Positions 9,043-64,000 of a DNA stretch of 64,000 bases are shown here, in pieces. The DNA comes from Arenicola marina. Its lineage: Eukaryota > Annelida > Polychaeta > Arenicolidae. Made by a program: the position numbers and the translations under genes. The notes below the pieces were generated by a model. The model saw only the letters and a program-made list of their open reading frames with translations. It searched no databases and was not told the DNA's origin. The stretch lies in NCBI GenBank assembly GCA_964019135.1, contig OZ025253.1, forward strand, positions 7,817,059 through 7,881,058. The letters are read 5' to 3'. The number at the start of each line of letters is the position of its first letter. The stretch's first letter is position 1.

Positions 9043-9177
9043 CTTCGCCCTCCCTGCAGTTGGGGCCTATCCACCCCACCTGGCAGTTACACTCTCCAGA
9101 GATGGGGTCGCACGCCGAACCGTTGTCACAGTCACAGAAGTAAGCACAGTTGGGGCCGTAGCGTCCCCGGCGGCAAG
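9043..9177 (-). CDS. MEGF6: MEGF6-like exon 29: last laminin-type EGF module seen
   Basis: Forty-five codons, phase 1 to 1, acceptor CATTGCAG, donor GTGAGTAC. Eight cysteines: [30 protein letters not shown], then REGE. The strong donor shows that at least one more exon follows further left, but I could not identify it securely. Confidence 0.94.
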
Positions 9178-12100
9178 CTGCAATGTAATCAAAGGATTAA
9201 CAAATCTTGTCATTTATCTTTTTCATTTATCTTGTTCATTTATATTGCTCATTGATATTACGAAGTATATTGTTGATTAATGCGAAGTATCCTGATGTAT
9301 CTCAGCGATCGTGATTGGTATAAGGTATGCTGATTCATATGAGATTTAAACTTTTATAAATAGTTTGATTCATTCCCAAATTAAGTTTTAATTTATATAT
9401 ATATATATATAAATGTATTACTCAAGCAGTATATATATTAGGTATGGGACTAAATTTATGGTTAAGAAGATGTGGTTTAGCTTACTTCGCTGACACTTCC
9501 TGCCGTCTTTGCCCGGCGGACACTGACAAGTGCCAGATACGGCGTCACATGGAATCCGGTCGTCATCGCAGTCGCACTCCAGACGACAATGGACGCCATG
9601 GTATCCATGGGGACAGGCTGCCACCATGGTAACAAAACCCTCGTTCATTATGTTCATTATGAAAAATGAATGGGCGCCACATTTACCATGCATATAACAC
9701 AAACTATAGGCATGTTATAACAGACATATCCTGCGCCAAAACATATCGACGAGAAATGGAGATACTCTACATTTGAATACTTCAACTCAGCGCGATAAGG
9801 TTCAAAATAAGACATACTTGACTCATATTCAATGCAATTACCGAGAAAAACAACCAAATATGTAGTTGTAAAACCAATTAATTGAAACCCACCTTTTTGG
9901 CATTCATCGCCGCTATAACCCGCCTTGCATATACACTGGCCAGTGATGGGGTCACACTTGCCGCCATTAGCACAGTCACACTTCTGATCACAGTAAGGAC
10001 CAAAGAATCCCTGAGGACAAGCTGCGAAACACCAACAAAGAAATCATTGTTAACATTCATAGCGGACAAATACAAACTATTTTTCCTATAAAAAAAAATA
10101 ATTTAATAGTAAAAGTTAGTTTATTGGTTGATAGCTATAAATAAACATCTTGGACGAATTTTAGATGTGATGGCTAACGCCAAATGTTCATGGGCCAAGG
10201 TTTTGTATTGACTTACCCATTTGAAGGAACAGCTAACTAAGCCTGAGGGACAGCTGACTTACCTAATTGACACTGGGGGCCGTACCAGCCTGAGGTACAG
10301 CTGCAGCAACCCGTCACCCGATCACAAGAGGCGCCGTTCTGACAGTTGCAGGTGTGTTGACAGTTGGGACCGTACTTGCCCCCCTGACAGGGGAAGTCGC
10401 AGTTGTCCCCACTCCAGCCAGTGCCGCACTGACAGTGGCCGGAGATGTGGTCACATAGGGCGTTGCCTTTACATGTGCATTCTGACGCGCAGTTGTAGCC
10501 GAAAGTACCCTCTGGACATGCTGCATGGTGATGAAAGGAAATGGATTTTCAGTATCAAAGAACAACGGAGGGCACACACAGTTATTCAGAAACCAAGTTT
10601 CCATGTTTTATGAAGTAGCGTTCAATGGGCATCTGGTTTTGCATACGTACAATACAGTCGTGAATAGGATCACATTAGCGCGAGTACGTTAGCGGGGCGT
10701 TAGGCAATTTCACTTTATATTGGCGTTAACAGGTTTCCTACTTTTTCGCATACAACCTTCGAAGTAGCCTTACAAGCCTTCCTACATCTTGTGAGCCAGT
10801 CGCCTTCTTTCATATTATATATATATAGAAGACAGGTGGCACGTGCGCTATGTGGGCCGTTTTATAACCACAATTGTTTAACATCATGTTCCATTGTTCT
10901 ACGCAATGTCACTATAGCAACGGTTGTCTATTGAAAGGGCCGCAGGACGGTTTAGGTCAGATTACACGATTTTAGTCGCCTTCAGATTTAATGTTATTAT
11001 AATAGTTAACACGTCCATCAACTCGTAATAATCCCCATTTGTTCTGCCATTATTATGTTATTCTGGTTGGCCTAAACACATTCCAACAAACTGGAAACAG
11101 TCAACTTGATGGCAAGCGACACCATAAACATACTTCACGTGTGCATACTGTCACATGCAAAAAAGTTGAGATGTAATAACCGGATATAAAATATTGGCGT
11201 TTCATTACGGATTGCATACGAGCAACGTAACGCCCCATTTCTCCTTAAAATGTCATCATTTCTTTTTCCTTGTCCTCATCGTTTCTTCGTATCTCTTTTT
11301 AAAAGAGCCCACATTGCTTACTCGTACATTTTAAAGTGTTATCATTTCTTCTTAAAGTGTCCTATCTTGCCCATTAAGACAGGCTAAAAGAAACGAATTC
11401 ACTGTCCTAACCGGCGTACAATAATTACACCTTTGTCACTATATGTAATTTGAAGCCTTTATCGCAATTGTATCACTATCAAAAGAGGGGGGGGGGCGCT
11501 GGTACCTTTTCCTATCTCCGCGATTGGCAGCCAGGAATTCTTGGATATTCGCCATTAGCTGTCGGCAATTTTGGGGAATCGTTATCCATACGATTCGTGG
11601 TTCAACCCGAATCCCCTTTCCATATTTACCGTGATTCGTTATAGCAGTCTGTGAATTCCTCGATATTCGCGAAAGGTGTTTTTTTCGCGTCCAGTTTTGA
11701 GTAGGCATCATCTTAGAGATTCGATATTATTCTCCCTAATTCTTGGTGATTCACGATTAAGATTAGGTATCCCTTCCCCCGCCCCGTTACAAAAGAGATG
11801 AGGATTCACATGCTATGTACGTTGTATAAACACCTACACATAAATCTCTAAAACGTAAAACAAAAACTGAGAAACAAATGTGCCTTCAGCACGTGGTAGT
11901 AACACTTACGCAGTTCGCAGTTGCTGCCCGTGTAGCCCGGAGCGCAGAGACACTTGCCGGACTTGGGGTCGCACGGGGCGTCGTTGATACAGTTGCAGAC
12001 TTGGGTGCAGTTCTTGCCGAAAGTCTTCAACGGACATTGTTCCTCGCACCGAGGACCGATCCAACCCGGCGGACACAGACACTGGCCCGTCACTATGTCA

Positions 12101-15100
12101 CATGACCCCCCATTCTCACATTTACATACCAACCCGCAGTTTGGACCGTAATGACCGTCCTTGCAACCTGAATGGATGAAGGTAGCGAAGCCGCGTTAAC
12201 GCAAAAGTTGCTCACAAAATAAAAGAGAAATGTACATACAATGTTACATTTTAAAAGGAAATAATACTTTATGATATGCATGTTATATTTGAAACTATGT
12301 CTAAGGCTACAGATCAAGCAATTTTACCCCCCGTAGAAATTAAGCTTTATATTGCATAAATCCAGAAAAAAAATTGCATTAATAATATAGGCGTGTTGTT
12401 TAATGCAGTTCCATCTCGTGTGCGTAAAAACAAGTTAAGAAGAAATCACGGGGAAATGACATTACATTTGACAATATTTGTGTTATATTGAGCATCTCTT
12501 TATTCGCACGTCTGGACATAACCTCATTATAAGGCATTTTCTCATTCTACATACCTTTATTGCAGGTGCGCCCCCTGTGGCCGGACTTGCAGACACAGTC
12601 CCCACTGATATGGTCACATACCATGTTAGGACCGCACTCACACACACCCTCGCAGTTCTTGCCGAACGAACCCGGTGGACAGGCTGCAGTGATACAAGCA
12701 CCACGTGTAATGATATTATACATTATAATTTAATACAGCGATACAAGCACCACGTGTAATGATATTGGGTGGCCCCAGCATCTTGCAATCAAAATATTAA
12801 CCAGTAAATTGACCACCAGATGGCAGCACTGTTTGGCCTAAGGACCGTGTACTCACGTCTCTCGCAGGCCAGTCCGGTGAAGCCTTCTGGACAGTCGCAC
12901 TCTCCGGTCACGTGGTTGCAGGGCATCCCAAGGGGACAGTTACACTCCTTCTTACAGTGGTGGCCAAACGAGCCGGGCAGACAGGCTGTGGAGAGAACCA
13001 AGCCAAGTCCGCGTTGAATATACCGGGTGATATTGTAACAGTCAAAGCGACGCGGAATTTGTCGCACCTCAACAATATTGCAGACGCAGACATAGATTTT
13101 AACTCACAAAACAATTAGCAAATACCGCTAGAAGCTGATCCCAAATATATATCCAGACTAGGGGATATTAAGTTAGACCTTGGGCAACAGGTACTCAAAC
13201 ATTAAATTGATTTCAAATTTGAAATATGTTTAACACTTAAACCGAAGAATTTCATTTATATTCAGGTTACGATTCGCCCAGTTTTTTTTTATGGAGACCA
13301 AAAGATAACATAGATCAAAGCCAAAATGCAGAGAGTACACTGGGTGTGACTGAAAGCAAACACGTCGATAGTAGATAACACAAGCTAGAGAATAACGGGG
13401 AGAATAGAGAGAACGCGCAGCAGAGGACGGCGCCAGGTAAGTCACGTGGTATGTCTCACCGACGTCACAGCGTCTGCCACGCCACCCTGGCGCGCACTTG
13501 CAGTCTCCAGAGGTGGGTTGGCACGAGGCCCCATTCAGACACTGACATTGTTCGCCGCAAGCCTCGCCAAAGTATCCTTCCTTGCAGCCTATGATGGAGA
13601 CGTAACAACAGTCAACGAAAGGATAACACCGTTGAAAAATTAGTGAAATATTAATTAGTGAAATATTAATCGAAAGTATGGGTCCATTTACACCACATAT
13701 GCAATTATGATACCACAATTCTCCTTTATTGATTAATTCTGTGATATGCGTGTCATAGAAATACGTTCGGTTCTCGTGTTTGAAGTGCGATAATAATATT
13801 GTAAAATTAGGATAATTGTTACTGTTATATGATGAAACAAAATGTCCACTCACTCTGGTCACAGCGTTCGCCGATGAAGCCCACTTTGCACTGACACTGG
13901 CCAGTATAGCGGTCACATGACAGGTGGTTAATGCAGTCACATGTCATCTCACAGTTGCGACCATAATATCCTTGGAAGCAATCTGGACAAAAAAGGCAGG
14001 GGACCCAATTATTTGAGTGAAATAAATCCGTGTATTCATTGTATATGTCAGCTATTGCATTATAAATTAGAACTGTCAATCTTTGCTTATAACAAAGTGA
14101 ACATTCACAAATGTAAATGTAGATGTAAATATCATGCATGGTATTTATTATGGGCCCAGTATTTCAGCATTTTCCTCGCCCGCACGAACCTTCTTCGCAT
14201 GACGTTCCTGTCCAGCCAGCGGTACAGTTACAGTCCCCGGTCATGTGGTCACATACCCCATCGTGCAGACAGAGACACGACTGGGCACAGTTCATGCCGT
14301 AAAACCCGGGCGCGCAGGCTGCGAACACAAGTAATACGGTAATATCATTGGGATTGCGACAATGGAGAAGCCCATTTTCATTGCCAGCAAACACACAAAT
14401 AAAAAGTTTGCCATAACAATCATACTCATGACGGGTTGACTCGGTTGTCTGCAGCAACAATATTGGTCTGTGCATTAGTCATATTTGAAGTACCATATCG
14501 CGTGGTAATATTAGACAAGAAAATATCAAGATTTATTTAACATCGGTATTATTCCACAATATTTCCTTTATTTTACACTACATGTCCATATTATTGATAA
14601 TCTCGTGTACATCTAGTGCTATGCCGTGTAGTCGTTTAACTGCTACATTGTACTGGCGTGTTATTATGCATGTTTAGGTCTTGCAACGTATATAATTTCC
14701 AATGGACGGATCAATGGCCTTGACCTCACCTTCCTCACAGCGAAGACCCATCCAACCGGGACTACAGATGCACGATCCGGAAACCGCGTCGCAACTTGCA
14801 CCATTTTCACAGCGACATTCCTGTTGATTAAAAAATATTATACATTAAGTAAATAATCGAAATATTACGGCAAATATCAACACGATTACGTATGCAGACG
14901 CTACAGTGGGGCGCACCTGCACTGATATCTAGTATAAATACATTATCTAGTCTTTACCGTGTAAAACAATATTGTGCAAATAGACTACTATGAGATTACG
15001 GAACAACAAGAAAAAGTGAAAAACTAAAAGGCTAAAAAGGGAAATAAAATAGGCAATACAAAGAAAAAAAGACAAAAGCCTCGAGTGACTGACTTGTTTC

Positions 15101-18100
15101 TTTACCCATGTTTAACGAAAAGTTGTACATGAACGCTATATTGCGGGATACGGCCGTCAGGCGGGGCTGCGGTGCTCACCTTTTGACAGTCCTCGCCCCA
15201 ATTCCCCGTGGAGCAGGCCTTGGTGCAGCCCTTGCCAAGCCAGCCGGGTGCGCAGCTGCACTGGCCGGTGATGGTGTCGCACTTGGCGCCGTTCTCGCAG
15301 CTACAGATGCCTTGACACTCGAGGCCCCAGAAGCCGTCGGGGCAGGGTTTGCGGCAGGACATGCCCCGCCAGCCGGCTGTGCACACGCAGGCCCCGCTGA
15401 TGTGGTCGCAGCTGGCCCCGTGGAGGCAGTCACACGGCCGCTTGCACCCCGGGCCGTAGGTGCCGTTCTCACATCCTGTTTAAATAACGGAATATCGCTG
15501 ATTATCATCAAATGTTAATCAAGCCCCTTTTGTTTAATTCAACGGTGGTATACATATGACATTATTACGAGTTGACTGTCGTGGTAACTAGCTATATACA
15601 TTGGCCTTAAATCTGAAGGCGGCTAAAATCGTGTAGCATGACCCGAACCGTCCTGCGGCCCCTTTAATAGACAATCGCTGCCATAGTGACCGTGCGTAAA
15701 ACGATGAAGCATGACGCCAAACACAAAACGACTCTGGTTATGGATAGACACTTCCCGACTAGATGTACTTGCCATGTTTCTTGCAGTTATAGATTCTATA
15801 TATAGAAGCAGAGAAGTAGGCGTCTGACAACCTGCGCCCCATAAAGCTGTAATACTGTAGCACAGACAGACCTACTCTGGTGACAGCTCCCTCCACGCCA
15901 GACCGGGCCACAGATACATAGACTTTGTCTGGTCACAGCTCTCTCCCCGCCAGCCCGGGGCACAGATACATAGACTTACTCTGGTCACAGCTCTCTCCCC
16001 GCCAGCCCGGGGCACAGATACATAGACTTACTCTGGTCACAGCTCTCTTCCCGCCAGCCCGGGGCACAGATACATAGACTTACTCTGGTCACAGCTCTCT
16101 CCCCGCCAGCCCGGGGCACAGATACATAGACTTACTCTGGTCACAGCTCTCTCCCCGCCAGCCCGGGGCACAGATACATAGACTTACTCTGGTCACAGCT
16201 CTCTTCCCGCCAGCCCGGGGCACAGATACATAGACTTACTCTGGTCACAGCTCTCTCCCCGCCAGCCCGGGGCGCAGATGCAGTCCCCGTTCCTCGCATC
16301 GCATTCGGCGCTGTTCCTGCACTGGCATCTATTCTTGCAGTTAGGACCGAACATCCCTGGCGGGCAAGCTGTAAGTGAAGGACATCATTTCACTCACATT
16401 GGTCGGTCGCCATCGGTTCATCCGGGTACCACGAAGGATTTGTTTCATTTAAAATTGACAGTTTATTGAAATTTCATCATCTCAATTAATGTTGCTAGAT
16501 TGATCATTCTTGCTGTTTGGTCTGGACAATCTGATGAACTGACGTCTCGTATGCGGCTTCCCAAACCAAAGTTAATCGTGATGGACCACACCCACCAGTA
16601 GCGGTTTAAAAGTGGCCGCACGCGCCCAAGCCACTCATGAATCCAAATCGATATCAAACGTCTTCATGTCGTCTTTTGCATATCATAACTTACATATAGA
16701 TTATATCCAGTACATGGATTCTACTTTCGTATACAAATGGATAGACAATCTTCTCATAAGTCATGTAACATGCATATATGACATGATGTCTGTATGTGAT
16801 GACCTAAACTCTCTCACTATTCAATTTATTTTCGCACAACTCAAAACGTTGTTCCATAAACTAGCATAAAAAGTTATCCAACCCCAAACACCATATTATC
16901 AATCTAGTCAATTCATCGATAGAGACCCTAGCACGATGTATGGACGTGTACGTACGCTGATCACAATTGGCCCCCATCCAGCCGGCTGTACAGTTACAGC
17001 GTCCGTTCGTAGGCTCACACCGGGCGTTGTTCTCACAGACACATTGCATCAGGCACTGCGAGCCGTAGCGTCCCTCGGGGCAGGCTGTCAAGGTTTAATC
17101 ATGGTCATGGTGTTTAAAACGATGCATTTGCCCAAAGACAAATTATGTTTGAACCTCACTAATTTTAATTTTTCAATTTTTTTAATTCAAGTATTAAAAT
17201 ATTGAAGTACTTTAGCGCCGACCAAATCGGAAATTAGGCACAACAGTTCTCATTTGCTCTGAAACTACACTATCAAACTAGTTTAACTAGTATTATGGTT
17301 TGTGTTCCGCGCTATATGCTGATAGACTTACGTTCCTTGCAGAAGGGTCCGAACCATCCTGGGAGACAGATACATTCTCCGGACACGCGGTCACAGCCCG
17401 AGGCGTGCTCACACTCGCAGCGCCCCCTACAGTTCACTCCCCACTGGCCATCCGGGCAGTCTGAAGTCACGTGACCAGACGGTGATTCATTATGGAATGA
17501 GCGGAAATTAATACCATGTATCATATCTTCATGATAAACACCACTTTTAGCAGCATTTTATATTAATGTATGTAAATACTATATTTAACTCCTTTTTAAC
17601 ACCACTGCGGGAACATCATTACGTTGACCATAGTTTGCGCAATAATTCTATGACGTAGGTGACATCCTAACTTCTCGCAGAATCATATCACCCTAGATTA
17701 ACAATTTAGCATGGAGCACTAATAGTTGATTGTGACGGGTGGTGACGCGATATCACGTGACTACCCACCTTGGTCGCAGTCCTCGCCCATCTTGCCGGCC
17801 TCACAGAGACACGCGCCGCTCTCGGGGTCACAGACGCTGCCGGAACAGCGGCAGTCGAACAGACAGTTCTTCCCATAACGCCCAGCGGGGCAGGCTGTGA
17901 AAACCCAAACGAGGTCAAATAAAGTCCCACGAAATGGTATGAACAGCTGAATAGAAATCATCGCAATTTTATCCTGACATGAATATAATACTAGACGTGA
18001 TAACGTTACGTATATAATTTCAACTGATATGATTGAAGTTATTAGGACCATTATTTACATTATTGCCAGTAAGTTGTCAACAAAGACAAGAAATGTGGCA

Positions 18101-21100
18101 ACCATTGCAATAATGCATCGGCCTACAGTGTTAGATACGTATAGTTGACGAAACAAATATAGTTCTCTTTCGGCTTTACCCATGATCGTGGCTGGCCTTA
18201 CCCCTGTCACACGTTTCGCCCATCCAGCCAGGCGGGCAGTCGTTGAGACACGTGCCTGTGACGTAATCACACGTCATCCCGGCGTTGCACTCGCACCGCT
18301 CCACGCACCCTTTACCGTAATAACCCTCCGCGCAGTGACTCTCGCACTTCTCGCCTTGGTAACCATGCTTGCATTTGCATGTCCCATCCTACAAGAAAGC
18401 GTATAGACGACGCTGTGTTTAAACGTGAATACAGATACTAGGGGGGTGGGGGGGGGGGGGAGGGCAGACATGTTGCATATTATAGAATGATAGAATGCCT
18501 CTTTAGCCAGTAAAAAATAGGGTTGCACGTCTTACAACATAAAAACTTATATTTGACGTGCACTTATATCTGATGTGTACTTATATTTGACGTGTACTTA
18601 TATTTGACGTGTATAAGAATAATCATCAACGAGCAGAAACAGAATGGAGAGCACTAAAGCAGAGAGCTGAAGAAGGCTGAGAGAAACCTTCTTCTCACCT
18701 TGTGGTCGCACCCGTTGCCATGATCACCGTGGCAGTCACACTCGTTCTCACCTTGGGGACGCACACCTTGCCGTGATCACCGTGGCAGTCACACTCGTTC
18801 TCACCTTGGGGTCGCACACCTTGCCGTGATCACCGTGGCAGTCACACTCGTTCTCACCTTGGGGACGCACACCTTGCCGTGATCACCGTGGCAGTCACAC
18901 TCGTTCTCACCTTGGGGTCGCACCCCTTGCCGTGATCACCGTGGCAGTCACACTCGTTCTCACCTTGGGGTCGCACCCCTTGCCGTGATCACCGTGGCAG
19001 TCACACTCGTTCTCACCTTGGGGTCGCACCCCTTGCCGTGATCACCGTGGCAGTCACACTCGTTCTCACCTTGGGGTCGCACCCCTTGCCGTGATCACCG
19101 TGGCAGTCACACTCGTTCTCACCTTGGGGTCGCACCCCTTGCCGTGATCACCGTGGCAGTCACACTCGTTCTCACCTTGGGGTCGCACCCCTTGCCGTGA
19201 TCACCGTGGCAGTCACACTCGTTCTCACCTTGGGGTCGCACCCCTTGCCGTGATCACCGTGGCAGTCACACTCGTTCTCACCTTGGGGTCGCACCCCGTG
19301 CCGTGATCCCCGTGGCAGTCACACTCGTTCTCACCTTGGGGTCGCACCCCTTGCCGTGATCACCGTGGCAGTCACACTCGTTCTCACCTTGGGGTCGCAC
19401 ACCTTGCCGTGATCGCCGTGGCAGTCACACTCGTTCTCACCTTGGGGTCGCACCCCTTGCCGTGATCACCGTGGCAGTCACACTCGTTCTCACCTTGGGG
19501 TCGCACCCCTTGCCGTGATCACCGTGGCAGTCACACTCGTTCTCACCTTGGGGTCGCACCCCTTGCCGTGATCACCGTGGCAGTCACACTCGTTCTCACC
19601 TTGGGGTCGCACCCCTTGCCGTGGTCACCGTGGCAGTCGCACTCGTTCTCACCTTGGGGTCGCACCCCTTGCCGTGATCACCGTGGCAGTCACACTCGTT
19701 CTCACCTTGGGGTCGCACCCCTTGCCGTGATCACCGTGGCAGTCACACTCGTTCTCACCTTGGGGTCGCACCCCTTGCCGTGGTCACCGTGGCAGTCACA
19801 CTCGTTCTCACAGTTGGGGCCCCATGAATTGCTGGGGCAGGGCAGATTACAAGCCGGGCCGAACAGACCAGGCGCGCACTCGCAGTAGCCAAACATTCGG
19901 TTACAGTAGCCACTGGAGCACTGCTGGGGGCAACGGCGGTCGCAGTCGTCGCCATAGTAACCTGGAGGGCAACCGTCCTCGCATCGGTCGCCCTTCACCC
20001 CCGGGGGACAGCGGCAGATGCCAGTGTCTGACTCACACGACCCGCCGTTCTCACAGCTGCAGATACTGTTGCATCCGACGCCAAAGAAACCCTGAAACGT
20101 AATGAACATGTGGAGTTATTATATATTACCTTACTTCCTCTTAGGGTTGCATGTAGTTTATACCAGATTTACGCGCGGTTTATCTTCTTAATATGTTCGT
20201 TGCGGCTTGAATCGCAACCACCTGACCATAGGAAGGAGAACCCTGAAACGTATCCATTGCTGTCAACCCAGCCCTCCCCACTTCTCCACACACTGCTGTG
20301 CGCTAACATAGTCCCAAAAGCCTAGCCAGTAGGCCTCAGGGCCGGGCTTCACTAGGATAATTACCAGGAGATCATCGCTTGATGAGGCGAAATGTGGCAT
20401 CGGATATACATAACACTCGTATACGTGACCCAGAATCATTCTCCAAATGAATGGGTGCGCTCACCTCGGGACATGTCTCGTTACAGAGAAGTCCCTGCCA
20501 GCCTGCCTTGCAGTCACATCCCTTCCGATCCCTGTTGCAAGAGCCGCCATTTTGGCACGAGTCACATGTAAATTCACAGTCCGGACCAAACGCTCCCGGA
20601 ATGCATTCTGGGAAAGAATAAACAATAAATAAAAGTGAGACATTATTAGATACATATTACATAAAGACACTCTTTATGTCAACCAAAACAACGTTGCATA
20701 TTGAAGAACCATTGAAGAAAATCACGTATGCCAGTTGTTTCATTAGCAATTTACATGAAGGCCTATTATTTTTATGATTACTTTATTATACCTAATATAT
20801 AATATCTAAGCACTGGTGACTATATAATTACAGCTATATATAAAGATCACAACAGGAAACGACATGGACTAGAAGTAAAGGTTATTGAACGACAGTACTA
20901 CACAGAATGACGGCACATGACAGCAGGCAACAAACATAGATACATCATGCAATGTCATAGAATGTATGAAGCAGTGCTAAACCAACGTTTGCTAGTGTAA
21001 TTGGAGATGGTAGTGAGGGACATTTCTTCTGCAATGTAACAATAAAGAAGATAGCGTGTCACAGTTGGGAGGTTCTTTTTGGCTCTCATCTGGCTCTTGT

Positions 21101-24100
21101 TCAGCATATTCTGTTATGGTTGGACTTTAAAGTGAGGTAACATTACCAGATATTATGGTATACTTAATCCGTGGTAAATCCAATAGCAATGTATAATATG
21201 CATTGTTGAGCTTATATCTGTGGTATCGAGAAGTCATATCAGTGAGTAATTTAGTATTGTAAACTACAGACTGGAGCCGTTCTATGGAATATAACATTAG
21301 TGGTATGCAGCCATAGTTTAGTATATAACGCAAGCGTGTCGCTTCTTAGCCATTCCGGAACAACATCAACAGGTAAATGATGGTTATACCAACGACCAAT
21401 TTTCGTTGTTACCGTCAGTGAATGTCGATCTTTGTCAAAGAAAGGAACCCGATTGTGGCAATTAGAAGTGACTGGGCGATCAGGGTTTCGTTTCTTCTAT
21501 TGCAATCACAAAGTGCAAGGAATTAAAGTGAACTTTAAGACAATTTAGGGCATCGTCATTCGGGACAAATAACGTGCAATACGTGAACCAAGAGAGAACG
21601 CAATTGGGAGACATTTGGGAGGTAAACTTCCGGTGTCACATTAATACAACTGGGACGAATATCAGTAGATTTAACACAAATAACGACTTGAAGGAGACGC
21701 ACTGTTTATTCGCCTAATCAGTGCGACAGGGAGGAGCTACGAGGGAATAAACCAGGAGTGGGGGGGGGGTAAGGAGGGTGTGTTGCGGGGGGCGGGAGGG
21801 TGGGGGGGGGGGCTATAACACCGGCGTGATACCCGGATGAACGACAAACCGCTACCATGGTTACCTTGTATCCCATTCTGGTTTAGTGGCTTATCTAGGT
21901 GACTCATATCTACGGATATGGAGAAGTGTCGGCGAGTGACGCAGAGAACGAGAGAAACAGTGCATAACACAACACAAAAAGTACAACACTTAAATACATT
22001 ATGCACGCATGGTACAGACAAACACCACAGACACGTTACAAAACAAGGCATTCTTACTTCACTCAACCTACGTAGCCTTAAACATTACTCCAGCAAGATT
22101 TAATTAGCTAAACCACATACTTAAATAGTGACAGGACGTAATTAATCTAACAGAATATATTCTCCACCAGAGGATATCTACAAATGTTATTATTTACAAA
22201 AGATATATATGTGTAATTACAGGTCATATAGATCCATGTATATTGATTTCCAAACTACTTGGGACCTATTACCGGCATTACTGTACATATATATATGTCA
22301 GTTATGTGCTTATGAAAAGGTACTGAATATAAAAAGGCACCAATTGCATCATTGTGACAACATATCTAAAGATGAAGACGTTTTGTCCTTGCTTGTGATG
22401 TAGAAGCACAGAAGTCTCATATGGTCTGATAATCTGGGTACAATGCAAATAAGCCTTGCAGTAAGCATAAGCAACGAAGCAACCGATGAGGTATATATAA
22501 GAGGGAATGTTATTTGTGCTTCATCAGGCAATTTGACTCCAAGGCCTAATATTGGATTTAAAACAGGATATCCTGCAAATTACAAAATTATAAATACTTG
22601 GGGGAATGAAGACGAATTGTGTTGAATGCTGCTACTGCTGCATCCGATAAAATGGCAAATCGACCTTGCCAGCTTAAATATGGTGCTGTAATCAAGGTGT
22701 ACAATTCATTGCGGGTGTCAATGCACTGGATCGTGAAATGGAAATCACGTGTGTCGCCAGAGAGACGTCGAAATATCATGTGAGTAAATTTGTTGTTCCA
22801 CACCAAATTAATCAACTATTTGCTTGGCTAACATATGCTTTCTGTCTACCTGACTCCCCGTTCGTGACGTCATCACTGACGTCAGCGATGACGTCATCGA
22901 CACGTATCGTTAGGTGGGATGAGAAATCGTCCTTAACTAAAAGCAGAAATATCTAACTTTACCACCACGCAGTCTTACTGGTCTTACACTGCTTTGCGAT
23001 ATTACGGACAGCTCCTGTTTGCATCGCTGTTCATCTATATTTAGAATGTGATTGATGGTTTTGTTCCGACATGTTGGATAATTGTACCCTATTTTATAGG
23101 ATAGGAACCCCATTTTATGCGATGATGAAACCGTATCGACAAAACATCCATATTACTTGTAGAAATGGCCAAGCGAAGTATGTCAGCAAGCGTCACCGCT
23201 ATTCACTATAATCTATGCTAACAGCGTTCGCCTATCTAAATACATCGCCATATAGTTTCAAGAAAGTAAAATGATATCTACGAAGCTTATTTTATGGTAG
23301 CCTCCAAATTGTGTTGGTTGAAGGATTGATACCAACCCATGCCAACGGTATTTGTTGCCAGTTACATAATATTTACAGAATAAACATGCAATGAAAAGAT
23401 AAGAAAAACCCATTATACCAAATGTTGAATGGAAGAGACTGACTTTGTTAAGATTTTGTTAAAGTTTTTAAAACGGACAAAAAAGTAAAACCAAATACAA
23501 AAAGAACATAAAAAAACAATTGTTTCTCCGTAATAATACCTTTCGCGATGGCGGAAAGGGAAACAACGAGGAGAAGAGACTTATAAAGGTATCCCAAAGA
23601 AGACCAATATCCAAGATGAAACAGTGATTTACACTGGCCAAGTCAAGTTGTTGTCCTAGTGCAAATAAATATTTCGCCTAGTTGTTCGTGAGTGAAACGA
23701 GAAGCACCAGACAGATGTGAGAGAGTGTGAGAGTTGGTGACAGTGGCGATATAACTGTATAACCCTACCTGGTTTAACCACGTTTATCTCTGGTAGGCAA
23801 AAGGTTGAAGAACAGGAACATCATTCAATCAATAACACAGCTTCAGTTAAACTCAGTTAAAGTATACTCTAAAAGAGAGACCTGTTGTCGAAGGGGCTTA
23901 TTTGTATTTTTTTCACAATTAGCGCTAAGATAATTATGAAGTTCCTCAACAATGTAGTGTCTGTCAAACAGAGAAGATTGCTTAAGCACCAAGAGACATA
24001 AGCCGTTTTATGACAACAGGTTTCTCACGCTAAACTATTTATACTAGTTAATCAATGTATACCCTTATATAACCAATGTAAAACCATTGGTAACTGCGTA

Positions 24101-27100
24101 GCAAAAGCCATATTTACACCACGAAGTCAGTCAATTCTCGGACGGTAATGACAATGTGTTGTGGGGTTACCAAGCTCGCTAGCGGCGGGAGCGATGTGGA
24201 TCAAGTACGAAGAAACACCAAAGTAATCCACAGTGTTATGTAATGCCCTGCTCACATAGACCCACCGACGCCTCGGCCGAGCTAAAAAGGGGGAAATTGA
24301 CCCCAAATCGGCCCCAAATCGGCCGACCTCGGCCGAGCATTGCTGCTCGGTGGCTCATTTCAGGTGCTCGGCCGAGGCCTTTCCAGTTTTAATGCAGACA
24401 TTAAAACCAGGCCGAGCTCGGCCAATTTCCTTAGGTCGGCGGAGGTGGGCCGACCTCTCGGCCGAGCTCGGCCGATTTTTAAAACTATGAAAGCTCGGTG
24501 GGAAAGTTGAAGAACTCGGTGGCGTGGGCGAGCTCTGACGTCGGCCGACCAGTCTTAGTCTATGTGAGCAGGGCATAAGACGAGACTAGATATGTGTTAT
24601 TGGCTTCACACAGCTGCGCAACTGCTACCAATCTTGTCCGGCATTGTTTGCTCGCATCAGAGGACTTTTTTTCTGAATATCAATGAGTTATAGTTTCTAC
24701 AGAGATTCTACAGCGACAATGTGAGTTCACTGTACATTATTATCGAACTGGCTTTACGGTACTGGTTCCTATGTTGTTGCGTTATTGCTCACTGGTTGTT
24801 AACACGGAACAAATGACCCCGTAATCGTCTAAACAATAAGCTGCAAATATGCGGTAAGAGCCCTTTTACTTTTGCGTGGGCCAAAAAAAAATCAAAACTA
24901 GGCTTTGTTTCAAATATATAAGTACGTATACATAGCCGACGCTTTTAAGTAAGAGCTTCATAGCATTGCTTCAGGCTCAAAAGCATCAAACGTAAACACA
25001 CTCGGAACAAATACGTGATAACATGTACGCATTTACACAAACATGTGTTGTCGTCAACACGTGTTATTAAGCGAAGCGCGAATTGAAGTCTCCCTTAATT
25101 ACATTAAGCACAACACCAAAAGCCTGCAAAAGTGAACAGATGGACTCGAACAAGTGAACGCGAAGACATGTACCAGACATTTAGAGGTGTTAATAAGCTA
25201 CCCATACCTTCAGTAGGTAAATGTAAGGAAGTGAAGGAGAAAGGAGGAACACATGAGGAATTAGAACAGGTTTAACTAGAGGCTTGAGACACAGTAACAC
25301 AATTAGAAAGTTAAGTACTGAAAATGAAGATATAAGCATGCCTCATCCATTTAAAGATAACATAAAAACATTCAGAATCATTATTTAAAATTTAGAACCC
25401 CTCATTTTCCATATGACCGTTACATCAACGAAAAATCACATTTAGTGTTTCTATATCAAGCGGCACATAATGATATTTTGTCGTAGCTGCTTGGATATTG
25501 ATCAAATCCTTTCTATTATACTGTATCAAATATTGAAGTGGCCCTATGTTCGTCTACTTAATCAAGTCATGGAAACAATACAGCGAACACATTTAACAGT
25601 TCTTAAACAATGATGGTAATTACGGGTCTGGTGTCCAATCAGAGAGCAGTGGACGGACATTGGCTCCGCTGGCGGGGTGAGTGACCTACCTATCCTGGCC
25701 TGTGGCTCCTGCAGCTCCTCTCGGTGGGGATAAGTTATTGGAATGATGCTAGGGGGCGTTGGCTGGTAGCGGAGGGTAGGCTCCTGGGGGCCCAGGTCTC
25801 CCCGATCTGACATGCACATTAACGGTTAACATTAACATTAACTCATATCGGTTAACCAGTCAGCAGATTAGAAAATAAATTATGTGATATACATCATTAT
25901 CGAAGCAAGCACTGTAGCATTGCATTTATTGTTCTATTTACCCGTTTATTCAGTTATTGTGGTGAAATTAGGCACGGTGGGCGTTACGAGTAAGGGGGAA
26001 CTGGCCAAAAAAAACTTAAGATGGCAGACTGTAACGACTTTGAGGGATCGTGTTATAATTTTCAGCTAATTCGTGTCAGAACATTATAAGTATCAGTTCT
26101 AATACATCGATCTTTTATCTATGTTGATTGGAATATTGGTCACATGACCAAATGCTTTGTAACTCATGTGTACCCATCCTCATCACAATATGATATCCAT
26201 ACCCTCAACATCATAATGTTTATGAACTATTAATTATAATTAGATTTAGAAGAAATTGCTGAATCGGAATTGCACATCAACAATGCTCTCTCAAGCGATG
26301 TCAACAGTCGGCCATCTTAGAAGGACTGTCTAATCCCCCTTGATTAATAATGGATAAATGTAAATGGGTAAATCTAACAACGTTACTGCTACGCCAATTC
26401 ACAGTGGGCAAGATTGACAGGAACAAGCTAGGATTATAAACCATGAAGACAAACGTCTCAACTACTCAATAATTGGCTTTCGCCCTACGGACACACGTCA
26501 TCGCGGTATCCTGGGTGGAGACTACCAAACACGCGTGTTGATTTGCCATTGCGTACAATAGCTAACATAGGTTATCATCGTCCCAGTTCAACCACAGCTC
26601 CATAAAACACCTGAACCATCTTCCCAGACGATAAAGTCGGCTCAAATGTACTTTGGCGTGTTGACGCATAGCAACTTGGGGGCTAACTGGTTGGTTTACC
26701 GGGGGGGGGGGGCGATTCACTCTTTGTATCTCATATTGCGACGACGGGACGGGTCAAAGTTAAGAAGAAACATATATCATGTGTATTTATGCCGCAAAAA
26801 CATATTCATTTGCACTGGTGGGGTTCGAACCAGCAAACCGGCCACTGTGGCGGTTATAGCAAAACGCATTCGACAATGACCGCAGACTGCGCTCCCTAGC
26901 AACGCAATGGGCGAGAATACCCGGATAAACCACATGTTGGGAAATACATGTATTATAATGTAAATAACTATATATATATAACGACATATATATGTGGTAT
27001 AAAATACCGACTTACCTGGAAGACATCTCCGGCCACCACGCGCCAACAGGTACCCAATGTTACATACACATTCATAGGTTCCCTCGGAGTTAACGCAGAG

Positions 27101-30100
27101 CTGCTCGCAACCGCCGTTGTTATTTTCGCACTCGTTGATATCTGTTGAAAAGACGTTCTAGTTCAGACAATGATGTAAAACAAACAGGTGCGTGAAACAT
27201 TATTGATGTAATGCATTATATTTTGAAGGGACGAACTTACGGAGTATTTCGGAATCATTTGCATCTGAGACACATTAAACCGACGAAGCCTTACAAGAAA
27301 TAATAGCCCTGCCTTACAATAAGAAAATATTGTTATGTAAAGGTCATGGGAAAGAAATGTTGCTTTTTTACACAGATCAAAGGTCAAAAATGCTTACGCA
27401 ACTAACAGGTAGCACGTACTTTCTTCTGCCCGGTGTCAAAGCATTACCATTACATGTTTTATGTCCACCGACTGACTGAACTTTGCTTCATTTCATAGAA
27501 CAATATCAGACATGTTAGATAAGCCATATGGCAATAATGCAAATGCATTGTCGTACATGGACAGCGTGCGACCATGAGATATAATATATATATGTGAGAT
27601 ATAATGTGACACTTAATAATGGTATCCCAAACAATATAAGCAATTATTCTTACTAACTTGACTTACGTACTTAAACAAACGTCCATATTTACATCCCAAT
27701 ATGATATATATGATAGATTGTATGCAGCACCATTACCAGGGGTAAATATGCATGCCATAAGTACTCTTTTCCTTGTAATATTAACGTATTTTTCTAGAGT
27801 TCCAGCCGAACATTTTCAGTCACTGCTAATCATTACATTACGTTACGTTCGGGAAGAATGATAGAAATAGACATATATGTTACAAGAGCACCACGGGCGA
27901 TAATGCACAAGATGACCTTCGACGTCGTCGCCAACGAAGGCAATGGAGTGCCCGTCAGCCTCGTTATCATTGTACCTGTGTGGCTTACGGCGAACCAGTG
28001 ATTGGCATGATGTATACATCAGTAACATGGAGTGTGACACTGGTTGCTTGGCCCGTGTATAACATATGTTATATAAAACACAATGAACTGACGTTAATAT
28101 CTACATATCTATATATGAGTCTCCTGTTATCACCATCATCCCGAGGTTAGTTCGCCAAGCCTTACCATTACAATGCCTTATTGCTACTAACACCACGACA
28201 GATGACTCTCATAATAATGATTAATGTGGCGCCACAAATTAAGTGTTCTTTACTATCTGATTATTTGGAAGAAGCCGCATCCATATACCCGTCAGCTATG
28301 GGCAAAAATGTATCAATATAATTATTTTACAAGAAGGTATGGCAAAAAGACGTTACTAGCAAAGGCAAACAATCAAATGCAACAATTATGAGAACAACAC
28401 ACTCATAGATATAGTAAATAGCGCGTGAACACATGCCACACGAGCGCAAGGGTTAAGCCGAGATGTCGACAAAGCAAAGGTTCATGTCCAGAGAGTTGTG
28501 TTGTCGTCGTCCGGGAAACGTAATACATGCGTTTCCAATAGCAATTATCATTCATTTTGTCAAGGAAACCCGACGTGGTGCGATTTCTAGAGGAGATTCG
28601 AATTTAGAAGTCAATGACAAGTTTCCAGAGAAATACCGAGGAGAATAATACTCAGATTGGAGGAGACAGCGCAGCTGACACAGCAATATTGGAGGTTTGG
28701 AGGTATATGTTTGGTGATGGAGGATGAATTTTAAATAGGTGGTTCCATAGCCAAGAGGGCGTCACCGCGGAAAGAATCTATAATCATTACATTGTATAGA
28801 ATGTTAAAGTATCAATTGACAGCCTGTAACTATATTATGATTAAAAGACTGTAACAAGACTGCGATGAAGTGTGGCAATTCGAATACGATCGCATTGAAT
28901 CCGGAGTATCGTGAAACTATGTCTGTCTGTATACGGTATACGACATGCCAGAAATATATGCTAAATATATGTCTAAATACCTAGTGTTACGTGGATTACT
29001 CGGCTAGAAAATACATTGAGGCGAGAACGGATTCATTACAAGGCGAGATTGGTGTATAATCTACGCCATACGTTTCCATACAGATGTACATTTGCACACA
29101 GCCAAATAATTGGAACAAGCTCTTATTAGCAAGTATTAGTGCAGCCCGCCATATCAATTCCAGTCTGACAGCACAAATCGCTATATTCTCAGCGTACACA
29201 GTCCGTGCAACACGTGAGGCAGCGACATATTTTTTGATTAATGTATGCAAATTTATCGATGCATGGGGATAGAGTGAGGATAACCTAACTATAGCAGCAT
29301 CCGGGTGGCATGACAACGATATATCACTGGCGCAACCATGGCGACAGACAAACCTTGACAGTGGCAGCCGTCGATCGAGAGCGTGAACCCGTTTCTACAG
29401 CCGCATCGGTAGCTTCCGGGAGAGTTGGAACAGAGCTGGTCGCAGCATTCGTTGCCCACCAAACACTCGTCCATATCTTTACAAACATTGGCGGATATTC
29501 GTTGGCAGACAGAGGGGGAAAGGCATATTTGCACGAAATATCCACGGATACAAATGAAAGACGCACAAAGAGATGGAGCCACGATGGGCATGTGGCGTGT
29601 ATGGGTGACCATCGCAACGGTTGCCATGGAGATGAACACAAGTTTGGGACGGAAGTGACGTAAGCGTGTGGTGTTGCGATACGTGATGAAGCGCGTGGAA
29701 TGAGCCGAAGTGAAGAGGAAGAAGAGGGGAAAAAAGAAAACATACAAATAGTGAGAACATGAAACGTTAATAACAATAATGGTACGACATATTTCACAAC
29801 CGAGAGAGCGAATGAAGATGGAAATCTTTGCTTTGTCGCTCAAAGAACAGCAAACGTTTTCCAGGAAAAAATCTACAACATTAAGGTTAGCTCTACGTCT
29901 AGACTACGCCCAGAGCATAATATGGAAAATTGAAAGTAAAGTATCACCATTATAAGTAATCGATGTATAAGTACACATCGAATAGATGCTGCATTAGCCC
30001 CCCAAGTCAGTTTACATCGCGATCAACGCAGGTTACTCCGGTTATCTGTTATCGATCGTTACAGTTACCAGCTATACTTCCATTATTAAAACACTTGTTA

Positions 30101-33100
30101 TATACATATCATAACTACGATACAATATGCATAATGTTACATAAGCAATATTTCACAAATTATATTTATTTACACTTGCGATAAAATAAAGGTCGCTATA
30201 GCAAACTGGGCCTGTTGCTATGGCAGAACAAGGCTTGTTGCTATAGCAGACAAACTAACTACAATAACACATTTAAACTGGTTTGGTTTTCTGAAGATGA
30301 TTTCTCTCCAAAACAGATGACACTGCAGGGTAATATGTACGTACGACGGGAGTCTAATAGCATGAATAATCACATTCTTCTTCCTACATGCCTTCCACAC
30401 ATATTAATATCACAACATATCTGTCAATTATCACAGGCGTCCAAAACATATTTTTGATGATAATACACGCTTTGGATGCTCCCCTACTGCTTATACCACG
30501 CCCGAGGTCGGTATGGGCGTGTACTCATTTAACAATCAATTAAGGGACCATATATTATGCCTGCATTACATACATTACCCATTTTTAACCACGCCGTTCC
30601 CCACCCCACGTAATGGGTTTGAAAGGAGCGTCATTATCTCAGAAATAACGGTAGAAACAGCAAATGCAATAATACCTTACTAAGGTAAACTCCGACTGGG
30701 ATATGATAGCCACAATACACCAGGTTTTAAGATTGTATTTCCTTCTATGAGTCATCTTATCCCCAGGGCGTGAACCCCTTTTTCCGAAGACAAGATCAGG
30801 AATTAAAGACAACGAGGCCCGGAAATGCAGCATTTTAGCGAACCCGCCGAAAATGTGGCATTTTGGCGAACCCGCTGGAGATGTCATTTCACAACACGTT
30901 TGTAATTTCGGTTCAAATTCACATCGACATCTACTACTACTGCATGAGATTACGGGACTCACCACCCAACCAACGCCGGTTACAACAGAGCTCAGTCGAT
31001 CCTTACCCTCGCATGTTTTCCGATCGGCCTGCAGGAGGTAGCCCTTGTGGCAGCTACATACGGGTCCCGTGGCACCGTGCCTACACTCGTGGTCACATCC
31101 ACCATTATTCGTGGCACAGCTGTCAATCACCTCCATCTCGATCCCTGTGGCAAGACGCCAGGATTAGCTCACGGTATAATACCCCTCGTAAAAAAGATAC
31201 ATAACTAAATTGCTCTCTCCCACTGATATCACACGTTTGGGAATTATCATTAAGCACTTTGATTTCTTGTTGGTATCGGTATTTTGTATTATTAACTCAA
31301 CTACCAGAATTAGAATAAACCAAAGAATATGGCGTTGCACTATTACATTGTATTATGCTACCTCTACTTACTCATCCCCAGTTCTCCACGCGAAAGCATC
31401 AGACAAAATCAATGATATGTAATAAATAAATGAGGTCAGATAAACGGCGTAAAGTGCGTAGTTTTACCGTGTTTCTCCCGGCATACGATTATGATATTTT
31501 TCGCATTTAAAATCACACTTTTATATACAATATAATAATAAGAATGTTTCCAAAGTCACAATAACCACAATTCAATGCTAAATGATAACGAGCAGAAGGT
31601 GAATCTGATACGCTCCAAAAGTCATACACAAATGAACTGGTATAAGACTTTTTTTATGATATAAGACGCATCGCATCATGCGCACAGTCTGCGGCTCAAT
31701 CTACACGTTAGCACGTTTGCATGTCTTCAGATCGCGAATAATAAGCTAAATTTTGGAGATCGATCATTGTAGGCCAATATCAGATCATTTTACTCACTGT
31801 AACAAGTCTTGCTGTCTGTGCCCAGCTGGTAACCACGGCTACACGTGCACGTGTATGACCCACGTGTGTTGACGCAGTTCTGTGCGCAGCCACCGTTGTC
31901 AACGCGACACTCGTCAATATCTGAAAACATTATCATTATCTTAAGAAATCTCAGTCCTATTTGGATTAGGCGCATAGGGGACTCGATCCGAAGACAAAGG
32001 TATAAATAAAATGGAGAATCGATGATCTCTGAAAATAATCCTGGTCACTCACCAGGGAGCGCCACATGTACCAGTACACACCATCACACGTTCCCTGGTC
32101 CCTCACCAGGGAGCGCCACGTGTTAGTACCCACCATCACAAATTCGCTGATCGCTCACCAGGGAGCGCCACGTGTACCAGTACTCATTATCACAACTTCG
32201 CTGGTCGCTCACCAGGGAGAGCCACGTGTACCAGTACTCACCATCACAAGTTCGCTGATCGCTCACCAGGGAGCGCCACGTGTACCAGTACTCACCATCA
32301 CAAGTTCGCTGATCGCTCACCAGGGAGCGCCACGTGTACCAGTACTCACCATCACAAGTTCGCTGATCGCTCACCAGGGAGCGCCACGTGTACTAGTACT
32401 CACCATCACAAGTTTGCTGATCGCTCACCAGGGAGCGCCACGTGTACCAGTAGTCACCATCACAAGTTCGCTGATCGCTCACCAGGGAGCGCCACGTGTA
32501 CCAGTACTCACCATCACAAGTTCGCTGATCGCTCACCAGGGAGCGCCACGTGTACCAGTACTCACCATCACAAGTTCGCTGATCGCTCACTAGGGAGCGC
32601 CACGTGTACCAGTACTCACCATCACAAGTTCGCTGCTCGCTCACCAGGGAGCGCCACGTGTACCAGTACTCACCATCACAAGTTCGCTGATCGCTCACCA
32701 GGGAGTACCCGGCGTAGCACTGACACACCGGGCGGCCGCCATAGTTCACACACTTGTGATCGCAGCCGCCATTGTTCAACTTGCATGGATCTAGATCTGT
32801 AGCACCAAGGGATATATAGACCATATTCAAATAAGATACATACACATACAAACATACACACGATGATACATAATGTTCACGTACATCTTTGCTAGATGCT
32901 AGATACGGCGTTCAAAGCCAATACTGACTTTTCATAGATTTACATTAAATTTATTATTATTTTTAGGGATACTTATTATAATTTTTAAGCTTACTTATTA
33001 TTATTTTTGGGCTTACTTATTATTATTTTTAGGCTTACTTATTATTATTTTTAGGCTGATTTATTATTATTATATATTTTTTTTTAGGCTTATTTCTTAA

Positions 33101-36100
33101 TATTATTACTCTTATTGCCATATTTATTTACGCCACAACACGGAGTATTGCATTATTCTTCAGGAATAATGACAGTTACATTAAGGCATGGGGACGGTGA
33201 ATTCGCTTTTACAAGGCCTTCACGAAGAAGACGGTCTAACTTTACCATCGCAGGCTTTTCCATTGGACGAGAGCCGGAAACCCGGGCGACAGCGACAGTA
33301 AAAATGTCCGTTGTAGCCGTTGACACAGATCTGGTCACAGTCCCCGTTATTCTGATCGCATCCACCGACAGCTGCAGAATAGCACCAGAAGGGACATTAC
33401 AACACAGCCCACGTGGTCTGAATGCGAGAGTCACGCGGGGATTGACAACATAAAGCGCACAACTATGACGTCACATATGGACAGTTTGGTGACAAACATG
33501 GATACACATATATATTACCATGACACAACGTGTAATGATTGCAAACATTGCGATCTAAATTGACGTTAAATATATTACAAGCAGGCCGACAACAACATAT
33601 TAAAGGCGGTATATTATAACAATGACTATTCTTAAAAGCATCAGCGGTCAGTCATGACTTTACTATGACAATCACAGTCCACATTGATAGCCTGACCACA
33701 ATATTACGTTGTCCACCATGCAGGGACGTATTGTCAGGCCAAACGCAAAATCATGACACCTAAATTACGTAAAAACGTTATTTGCACGAGATAAAATTAT
33801 CTATAAGAAAGATTGCACCGACAAAAAAGACGTTTATTTTTGTACCAATGCAACTTGCAGTACTAGCTATGATACCATGCATGCATATTTACAAACAGGT
33901 TACAGGGGGTCATTTAGAAAGGCACTACTTAGGAAGAGATCAAAAGTGTATCCATGCCAGGATAAAATTCAGATTCATAGCGGACAAAGATGTGTCACGT
34001 GGCATGCACCGCAAAAAGTAAACAGTTCACCATATAGACAATCGTGCGGGGTTCACAAAATATCGGAGCTTCATCGCTGGAAACCCCTATGGAGGCGGAT
34101 ATACTTTTAGGGACATATAACAAATAAATGGCGTATGTTGTATCGGTTATCGTTTGCCTGAGAAAGTTCAGTAATGACACTAATATATCATTTGTGCTTC
34201 GCACACCACACCACCGACGCCCCAAAGATAAAATTTCACTTCTTTCTTCACATCTATTTATTTATTTATTTATACAAGAGAAGTAAATGATAGCGTAGCT
34301 AGCAAATGAGTGGTATGTGTCAAGAATGCCAATGGTGACTTCCGTGTTGTAACTTGCAAATATTGAAAAGTCAGTCCCCGGATGGGTGCATTATGATATG
34401 GCAAACTGAGGTGAGCGCTCTATGAATGCACCTGAATGCAGCGAGCTTGAACTGCGATTGCGTTATGACGCTTTGAACCGTTCAGGTGCAGCCTGCTTGT
34501 ATGTCACCCCCTCGCACTATGCTTCAAAATTATGTTCATAAATGATCTCCAGTCATAAAAAACTGTCCATTTCTTATGTTCTTTGTGCGGTAAAAACTAG
34601 GATTAAAGTCGGATAAACTAGGAGTGATTGGTGAGGTCGCGAAACTGCTGAACAGGTCCAACGGATAGTGGTGTCTTGTGGCGACATTTGTAAACAGGAT
34701 GTTCCCTCTTAAGTCGTGTGTACGTAAAGTCGCGCAAGACGAGAAACCCGGATGGAGCGCCCTCTTCTCATGGCGCCAAGTCGGCATAGCAACCCACCGC
34801 GCCACCAAGAAACAGTAGTTTCACAGTCACTCATCCCAGAAGGCCGAACAGAGCAACGAGAGGTCACTGTAGGCTTGGTAAAGCTGCAGTACATCCCCAA
34901 AGGAGACTGGAATACCGTTACGAACAGTTCTACGTGTAGGGGGAATTACGTAAATATTGAAGTTGAAATAAACCAGATGCCTCCGAAATATGAAGACAAA
35001 TCACATAATTGCATTGCCTGTTCCATCATTAGTATATTCACTAAACATATATCATGGGACTACACACAAATAGATGACGTAATACACTGGTTCCAATTTG
35101 CCGTCGACTGTTAAGAAAATAGTTGTCTCCTGGCAACATGTATCATTACATTGCCCCCCCACACATGTTACAGCTGTACAATTTGTTTGTCATTTATGCA
35201 TACTTTGTAGACCTTCTGCAATGTCTTTATAAGTGACCAAAAGTCGTTGGACGCCTCACGGTCAGCCACAAGCCCCCCGCCCGCCCCACACACACACACA
35301 CACTCCCACCGCCCTGGTTGCATGGTGTGGGTGCCATGTTGGGTGCCAAGCACAGGGGCCCACATCTCTCTGTGTTCGCTGTAGAGATGGGAACACGAAC
35401 ACCGACTTAGAGGCACCAGTAGGTCGGGGGTTACAAAGGGCACGACCAGCCTTGGAAACATCACTCTTGGTGGGTTGGACAAGTAGCCAGCTGCAGCGCA
35501 GCCTCCTCCCCACTTCGCCATTGACCCTTATCTCCACGCCAAGCCCCGTAAAGAAATGTATTGTATTCGTGGCCCTGTATTCTCTGTATTTGTTTAAATT
35601 GAGCATCTGGCATTAACAGGACCTCATCTGATGTTTCCCTGTAGGCGCGCGTAGACGAACCGAGTAACAAAGGAGGAGGGAAGGGGGAGCAACCATGCTG
35701 GTTCCATTGTCAATATGTGAAAATCTTGAAAAAATGTTATTTGTTGCGTTAAAAGATGGTTTGACACGATAGAATTGCGTAGGAAGTTTTGGAAGACCGA
35801 AAGTGTCAAAATAAAATAATCCGAATGATATGACCCTTTCGGCTTTCCATAGAGAGGGGGAACACCCTTGATTCACACTAGGATAGCGTTCGAAAATGTG
35901 AAAAACTATGACAACGTCACGCGCTAAATCAAAGACCATAGTTACAGGGATAAAATATGGCCCTTGCTCTGGCTACATATGAATACCAACCTGTGTTATT
36001 GAGTGCTGTAAGCAGGGAATTAAACAGGACATGTTAAGTGAGAGGAATGGCTGGTCATTATAACGACAGGCTGAGGCAGCAATTGTTGACATAAAAGTAG

Positions 36101-63580: not shown

Positions 63581-63842
63581 AAAGTGAACGCCGCGGCATG
63601 AAGGTCAAGCAAATGGTAATCGCAAAGTGAACGCCGCGGCATGAAGGTCAAGCAAATGGTAATCTCAAAGTGAACGCCGCGGCATGAAGGTCAAGCAAAT
63701 GGTAATCTCAAAGTGAACGCCGCGGCATGAAGGTCAAGCAAATGGTAATCTCAAAGTGAACGCCGCGGCATGAAGGTCAAGCAAATGGTAATCTCAAAGT
63801 GAACGCCGCGGCATGAAGGTCAAGCAAATGGTAATCTCAAAG
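63581..63842. repeat. 43-bp tandem repeat, six near-identical copies
   Basis: Units beginning AAAGTGAACGCCGCGGCATG start at 63581, 63624, 63667, 63710, 63753 and 63796. The first differs slightly (CGC for CTC) and the rest are essentially identical, implying recent expansion. Confidence 0.97.
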
Positions 63843-64000
63843 CGAAAGGAAACATGCAACCTTTGAAAAGGCTCTCCAGGGCAACAGACGTGTCGCTGAC
63901 CCCCATGATAGCAGACTACACGTCAGTTCTCCATAACCTTGGCACCCAGATAACAACAAATCGATATTTGTTCACGTGATGATGATGAGCTCCGCAGCGA

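Follow-up and report, generated by a model that had tools for sequence, protein, structure and literature searches.

How could one gene come to repeat its own exon ends at three separate places, each time with a different unit? The question is raised by a stretch of 64,000 nucleotides (here called the window), whose minus strand carries an EGF gene with a tandem array lying across three of its splice donors (Table 1). The exons of this gene, from 39822 to 9043 (minus), were modelled using the EGF pattern and splice signals. The exon edges are predictions, since the splice-site scores came from a hand-written matrix. Joined together, the 27 exons give a stop-free spliced frame of 1374 aa. Pfam places eight calcium-binding-type EGF modules first and laminin-type EGF modules after them, with whole-protein E-values of 2e-48 for FXa_inhibition (8 stretches), 1.3e-32 for cEGF, 5.4e-19 for EGF_CA, and 2.1e-48 for EGF_laminin, for which only 2 stretches pass individually. 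We call the gene MEGF6-like from this order of modules, which we take to be that of MEGF6. A regular expression for the CCPG-type motif of an N-terminal EMI domain gave no match; the model does not include the 5' end of the gene. The PDB relatives of a 265-aa part of the protein were the angiopoietin-1 receptor, SCARF1, Delta-like 4, laminin beta-2, and an unnamed EGF protein. Among the 26 modelled introns, 23 are in phase 1 and 3 in phase 0. An Rfam search gave no match. An isolated EGF-like exon at 61423-61527 (minus), far upstream of the modelled gene, is possibly its 5' part or else a piece of another gene.

Tandem Repeats Finder recovered the three arrays at the positions where the original prediction had placed them, with the same periods of 52, 53, and 54 bp, and the predicted 8, 21, and 12 donor positions in register (arrays 1, 2, and 3, respectively) were confirmed. 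All three arrays lie on the gene strand, where they begin within an EGF exon and extend into the next intron. The GT is intact at 7/8, 21/21, and 11/12 of these positions, the last count taking account of a final step of 52 nt. In array 2, all 21 donor positions read AAG/GTGAGA. In array 3, donor sites 2 to 6 are near-identical, with GTGACT at donor 5. The expected design of the unit, consisting of the exon end, the GT donor, and the start of the intron, was found in each array, but more of it is exonic than the "last codons" that had been foreseen. By visual inspection of the sequences where the arrays are entered and left, about 40 of 52 nt are exonic and about 12 intronic in array 1, 46 to 53 of 53 nt are exonic and 0 to 7 intronic in array 2, and about 32 of 54 nt are exonic and about 22 intronic in array 3. 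The host introns measure 764, 1370, and 753 bp, of which the intronic parts of the arrays take up, by arithmetic, about 372, 1067, and 633 bp, between roughly half and more than four fifths of the intron. Provided that the arrays exist in the animal itself, they show that introns here grow by hundreds of bases out of exon ends. The array 2 intron (19759 / 18388) is in phase 0 and lies within a laminin-type EGF module (CDPK / DGTC). The consensus units resemble one another no more than shuffled sequences do (scores of 15, 10, and 13 versus 95% points of 17, 16, and 17), which agrees with the earlier description of the arrays as unrelated, and the idea that the units arose from one ancestral unit was rejected. 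The last copies are the most divergent in arrays 1 and 3, with 6 and 11 differences, respectively (the 11 being inflated by a 2-nt deletion), and the last unit of array 2 has 3 differences, the maximum for that array, the other units having 0 to 2.

Table 1. Location of the modelled gene, the three donor-spanning arrays, and associated exon features in the window
Feature	Position	Strand	Description
MEGF6-like EGF gene	9043..39822	-	27 exons modelled; N and C ends outside the model
Array 1	15868..16279	-	52-bp unit, 7.9 copies, 95% matches (Tandem Repeats Finder)
Array 2	18692..19819	-	53-bp unit, 21.3 copies, 97% matches (Tandem Repeats Finder)
Array 3	32041..32705	-	54-bp unit, 12.4 copies, 94% matches (Tandem Repeats Finder)
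EGF exon seeding array 1 by its 3' end	16240..16368	-	Donor at 16239
EGF exon seeding array 2 by its 3' end	19759..20091	-	Donor at 19758
Calcium-binding-type EGF exon seeding array 3 by its 3' end	32674..32796	-	Donor at 32673
Exon stretch resembling the array 2 unit	18304-18359 vs 18692-19819	-	

At each of the three sites, the reading frame is preserved when the first donor is joined to the next exon. Splicing from the later donors leads to a stop in 7/7 cases in array 1, in 20/20 cases in array 2, and in 6/11 cases in array 3 (donors 7 to 12), where the remaining five (donors 2 to 6) leave the frame open and add 18 aa per unit. Production of the modelled protein would thus require that the first donor be the one mainly used, at least in arrays 1 and 2. 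One might suppose that array 3 is put to use, its donors 2 to 6 producing protein isoforms with added 18-aa repeats, since these donors are open in frame and have near-identical sites. We regard this as extremely unlikely: the added peptide carries a single cysteine in every 18 aa and lacks the spacing of an EGF module, the six donors that follow all end in a stop, and the frame makes such a use impossible for arrays 1 and 2. The later donors look neutral, because the donor 9-mer takes its expected share of the differences among intronic copies (8/47, the 9-mer being 17% of the sites; 7/36 when unit 12 of array 3 is left out). Selection against the later donors was rejected on the same count. 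Should the arrays exist in the animal, this one gene provides three natural tests of donor choice, in which 7, 21, and 11 GT donors would compete in almost the same sequence context, and in two of the three arrays only the first donor yields the modelled protein. Among identical competing donors, the one closest to the 3' end of the intron tends to win. The available part of PMC5585400 does not state a preference for the donor nearest the 3' end of the intron. With as many as 21 near-identical donors in competition, what would make the first one win is a sharp and testable question.

The founding study of arrays of this design, on Adh3 in amphioxus, is said to be that of Canestro in 2002. Such "mirages" are tandem repeats over exon-intron boundaries in amphioxus genes, for which instability, undisturbed splicing, and a possible role in intron gain have been described (PMC3087553; PMC3902484, available part). 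Their units measure 150 to 160 bp in the globin genes (PMC3087553), 10 to 72 bp in Adh3, as cited (PMC3087553; PMC3902484, available part), and 60 and 108 bp, with imperfect repetition, in PGBD5 (PMC3902484, available part), where a mirage in troponin C is also cited. Acceptor-side mirages have been published as well, and the units at the ends of the globin clusters are divergent (PMC3087553). The arrays described here resemble these mirages in that, at three donors, a unit spanning the exon-intron boundary is repeated with its splice site, as one gene copy plus intronic copies. The units fall in the size range of Adh3, the end copies are divergent, and the GT is retained by most copies, as the splice signal is by many, not all, copies of the published arrays. 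Unlike the amphioxus cases, three arrays occur in one gene, all of them at donors and with up to 21 donor copies, and the gene is another one (MEGF6-like). By resemblance, the arrays are of the mirage kind that has already been published. Ordinary intronic minisatellites, too, consist of near-identical units in tandem, with variation at the ends, but here the first unit is protein-coding. A potato RdRp gene likewise shows a tandem duplication that copies splice signals (PMC4974935, available part), whereas here an existing intron grows and no new intron is shown. If the host is a lancelet, as we suppose, the gene adds to those with mirages and is notable for having three of them; if it is not, the phenomenon is wider than the amphioxus reports that we consulted. 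Our literature search found no survey of donor-spanning repeats; worm minisatellites close to alternative splicing are described in PMC4039745 (available part).

We consider it very probable that the arrays are three independent mirage minisatellites, as in amphioxus, born of local tandem duplications that are tolerated in introns. The founding step would have been a local tandem duplication that happened to span the 3' end of an exon and its donor, followed by expansion through slippage or unequal exchange. We propose that the arrays are tolerated because splicing at the first donor, the one presumably used in vivo, would leave the protein unchanged and turn all later copies into intron. The bounds of array 2 give a hint of how such a duplication might begin. 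Taking the last copy as the old start of the intron, the motif GTGAGAA is found in the exon and again at the exit of the array, 53 bp apart, and a shared run of at least 7 nt is seen in only 2% of random exon/intron window pairs of similar size. This suggests a duplication via a short direct repeat, the founding event probably having taken place between the exonic GTGAGAA and the donor GTGAGAA 53 bp downstream. The bounds of array 1 share 4 nt, which is at chance level (84% of random draws reach as many), and the 12 nt shared at the bounds of array 3 may be a truncated unit. Clear microhomology is present in array 2 only, and one mechanism for all three arrays is not proved. DNA secondary structure was rejected as a cause, as the units fold no better than shuffled sequences (z of -1.23, 0.27, and 0.24).

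A bolder version, in which the donor sites themselves seed arrays, would have an exonic donor-like GT(A/G)AG recombine or slip with the nearby true donor, so that introns grow in a donor-directed way. Array 2 fits this form exactly, with its two GTGAGAA motifs, and GT(A/G)AG occurs in the last 60 nt of 4/27 exons, including two of the three array exons (hypergeometric P of 0.049, post hoc). We think this version unlikely; were it true, exons with GT(A/G)AG near their end would be hot spots.

Alternatively, the donor sequence may have had no role at all. Ordinary minisatellites would then have arisen by chance in the GC-rich exons of an intron-dense gene, and only those reaching into the intron would have survived selection, so that no mechanism specific to the boundary would be required for the overlap with donors. 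This account overlaps with the one that we prefer and differs from it only in the role denied to the donor. For a unit of 52 to 54 bp placed at random in the modelled gene, the probability of spanning a donor is 0.043 to 0.045, and that of spanning an acceptor is the same; 82% of such units are wholly intronic. Among the arrays with at least four copies inside the modelled gene (arrays 1 to 3, 18545-18613, and 32951-33071), three of five span donors (P of about 0.001). When all nine array loci in the gene are counted, adding those with fewer than four copies (9204-9259, 13638, 30195, and 30819), the proportion is 3/9 (P = 0.006). These tests, which cover arrays inside the modelled gene, are post hoc because the site was chosen for its odd look; under such a test, donor overlap is more frequent than chance. 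The chance account gains from the base composition, with 58.7% GC in exons versus 41.3% in introns and 57 to 62% in the three array units, from the neutral look of the later donors, and from the fact that 52- or 53-bp duplications lying wholly in an exon would break the frame. Against it, acceptor-spanning arrays would be expected as often as donor-spanning ones, and none was among the arrays listed (3 versus 0, a weak contrast with a two-sided P of 0.25 by arithmetic), and the repeat that bounds array 2 is the donor motif itself. Overall, we lean slightly against this account, which comes close to an even chance.

The same comparisons bear on the mechanism shared by the three arrays that the original prediction had placed at exon-donor boundaries. 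A recurrent process at such boundaries is upheld by three arrays in this gene and by several amphioxus genes, but its restriction to donors is not, given the published acceptor-side mirages and the weakness of the contrast seen here. The meaning attached to the shared period was also lost. Published mirage units vary widely in length, as do other arrays in the window, with periods such as 20, 22, 26, 33, 35, 36, and 43 bp (Tandem Repeats Finder), so that near-equal periods were rejected as a signal, and the similarity of 52, 53, and 54 bp is most likely a coincidence.

The arrays had further been seen as a possible step in intron gain by tandem duplication of AG/GT segments, an idea proposed in 2010 for the globin mirages of amphioxus (PMC3087553) and in line with the potato gene in which an intron was gained through duplication across a boundary (PMC4974935, available part). 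This was not borne out, and we hold it to be very unlikely. Each array sits within an intron, and the exons on either side of that intron join in frame when the array is left out. The last 60 nt of these introns are unlike the unit (their scores were equalled or exceeded by 428, 397, and 468 of 500 shuffles for arrays 1, 2, and 3, respectively), which places the acceptor outside the copies, and a new intron bounded by the GT of one copy and the AG of another was not found at any of the three introns. The case for gain is best in array 2, whose intron is one of the 3/26 in phase 0 and lies within a module. The unit of this array, taken across the junction, aligns with nt 29 to 85 of the next exon (18388-18202) with a score of 39, reached by 0/500 shuffles, and this exon is the best of 26 for it; against the same stretch, the exon end taken alone, with no junction, scores 25. 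However, the unit also scores 33 against exon 9177-9043, and the exon end scores 40 against it, and, as EGF modules are related, shared module ancestry may suffice to explain the likeness. The corresponding ranks of the next exon are 4 and 5 of 26 for arrays 1 and 3. The intron of array 2 may thus have a duplication in its history, or the likeness may reflect module homology.

Near-identical units also invite the suspicion of an assembly artefact, with copies collapsed or inflated. The copy number of the PGBD5 array differs between published drafts (PMC3902484, available part), and the array of BflGb6 in a draft was termed aberrantly assembled by its authors (PMC3087553). The PGBD5 sequence was nevertheless confirmed by the original Sanger and new Illumina data, even if heterozygosity or assembly error was still named as possible by the authors (PMC3902484, available part), and BflGb6 has two haplotypes, with 6 and 3 units (PMC3087553). 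In the arrays described here, variant units are scattered and the differences are specific to each array. We judge an artefact highly improbable as the source of the arrays, though their copy numbers could be wrong in the assembly.

Other splice sites of the gene were scanned for traces of similar events. In a search for decayed arrays at 23 other donors, none beat the best of 100 shuffles, and 3/23 (exons 37229, 31920, and 10520) were above the 95% point. On the acceptor side, 3 of 26 tested exons beat the best of 100 shuffles (20091, 18388, and 16368), and exon 37229 tied with it. No tandem array was found behind the three acceptor-side matches, which correspond to a 14-bp acceptor copy (20091), to the resemblance between the exon and array 2 (18388), and to a local match of the exon to its own intron (16368). 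The 14-bp element at 20239-20252 (minus) repeats the acceptor of exon 20091 exactly (TACGTTTCAGGGTT); it lies in the same intron, about 150 bp upstream, and is perhaps left over from an acceptor-side duplication.

Elsewhere in the window, an array with 36/71-bp periods at 2745-2970 has a minus-strand unit with a donor-like GTAAGG and an acceptor-like TTCTCAG; no exon adjoining it was seen by eye. More minisatellites, with periods of about 20 to 43 bp, lie at 1489-2381, 53412-53774, 58368-59466, 59472-59630, 60545-60777, and 63581-63846, which indicates that the region is generally rich in such repeats.
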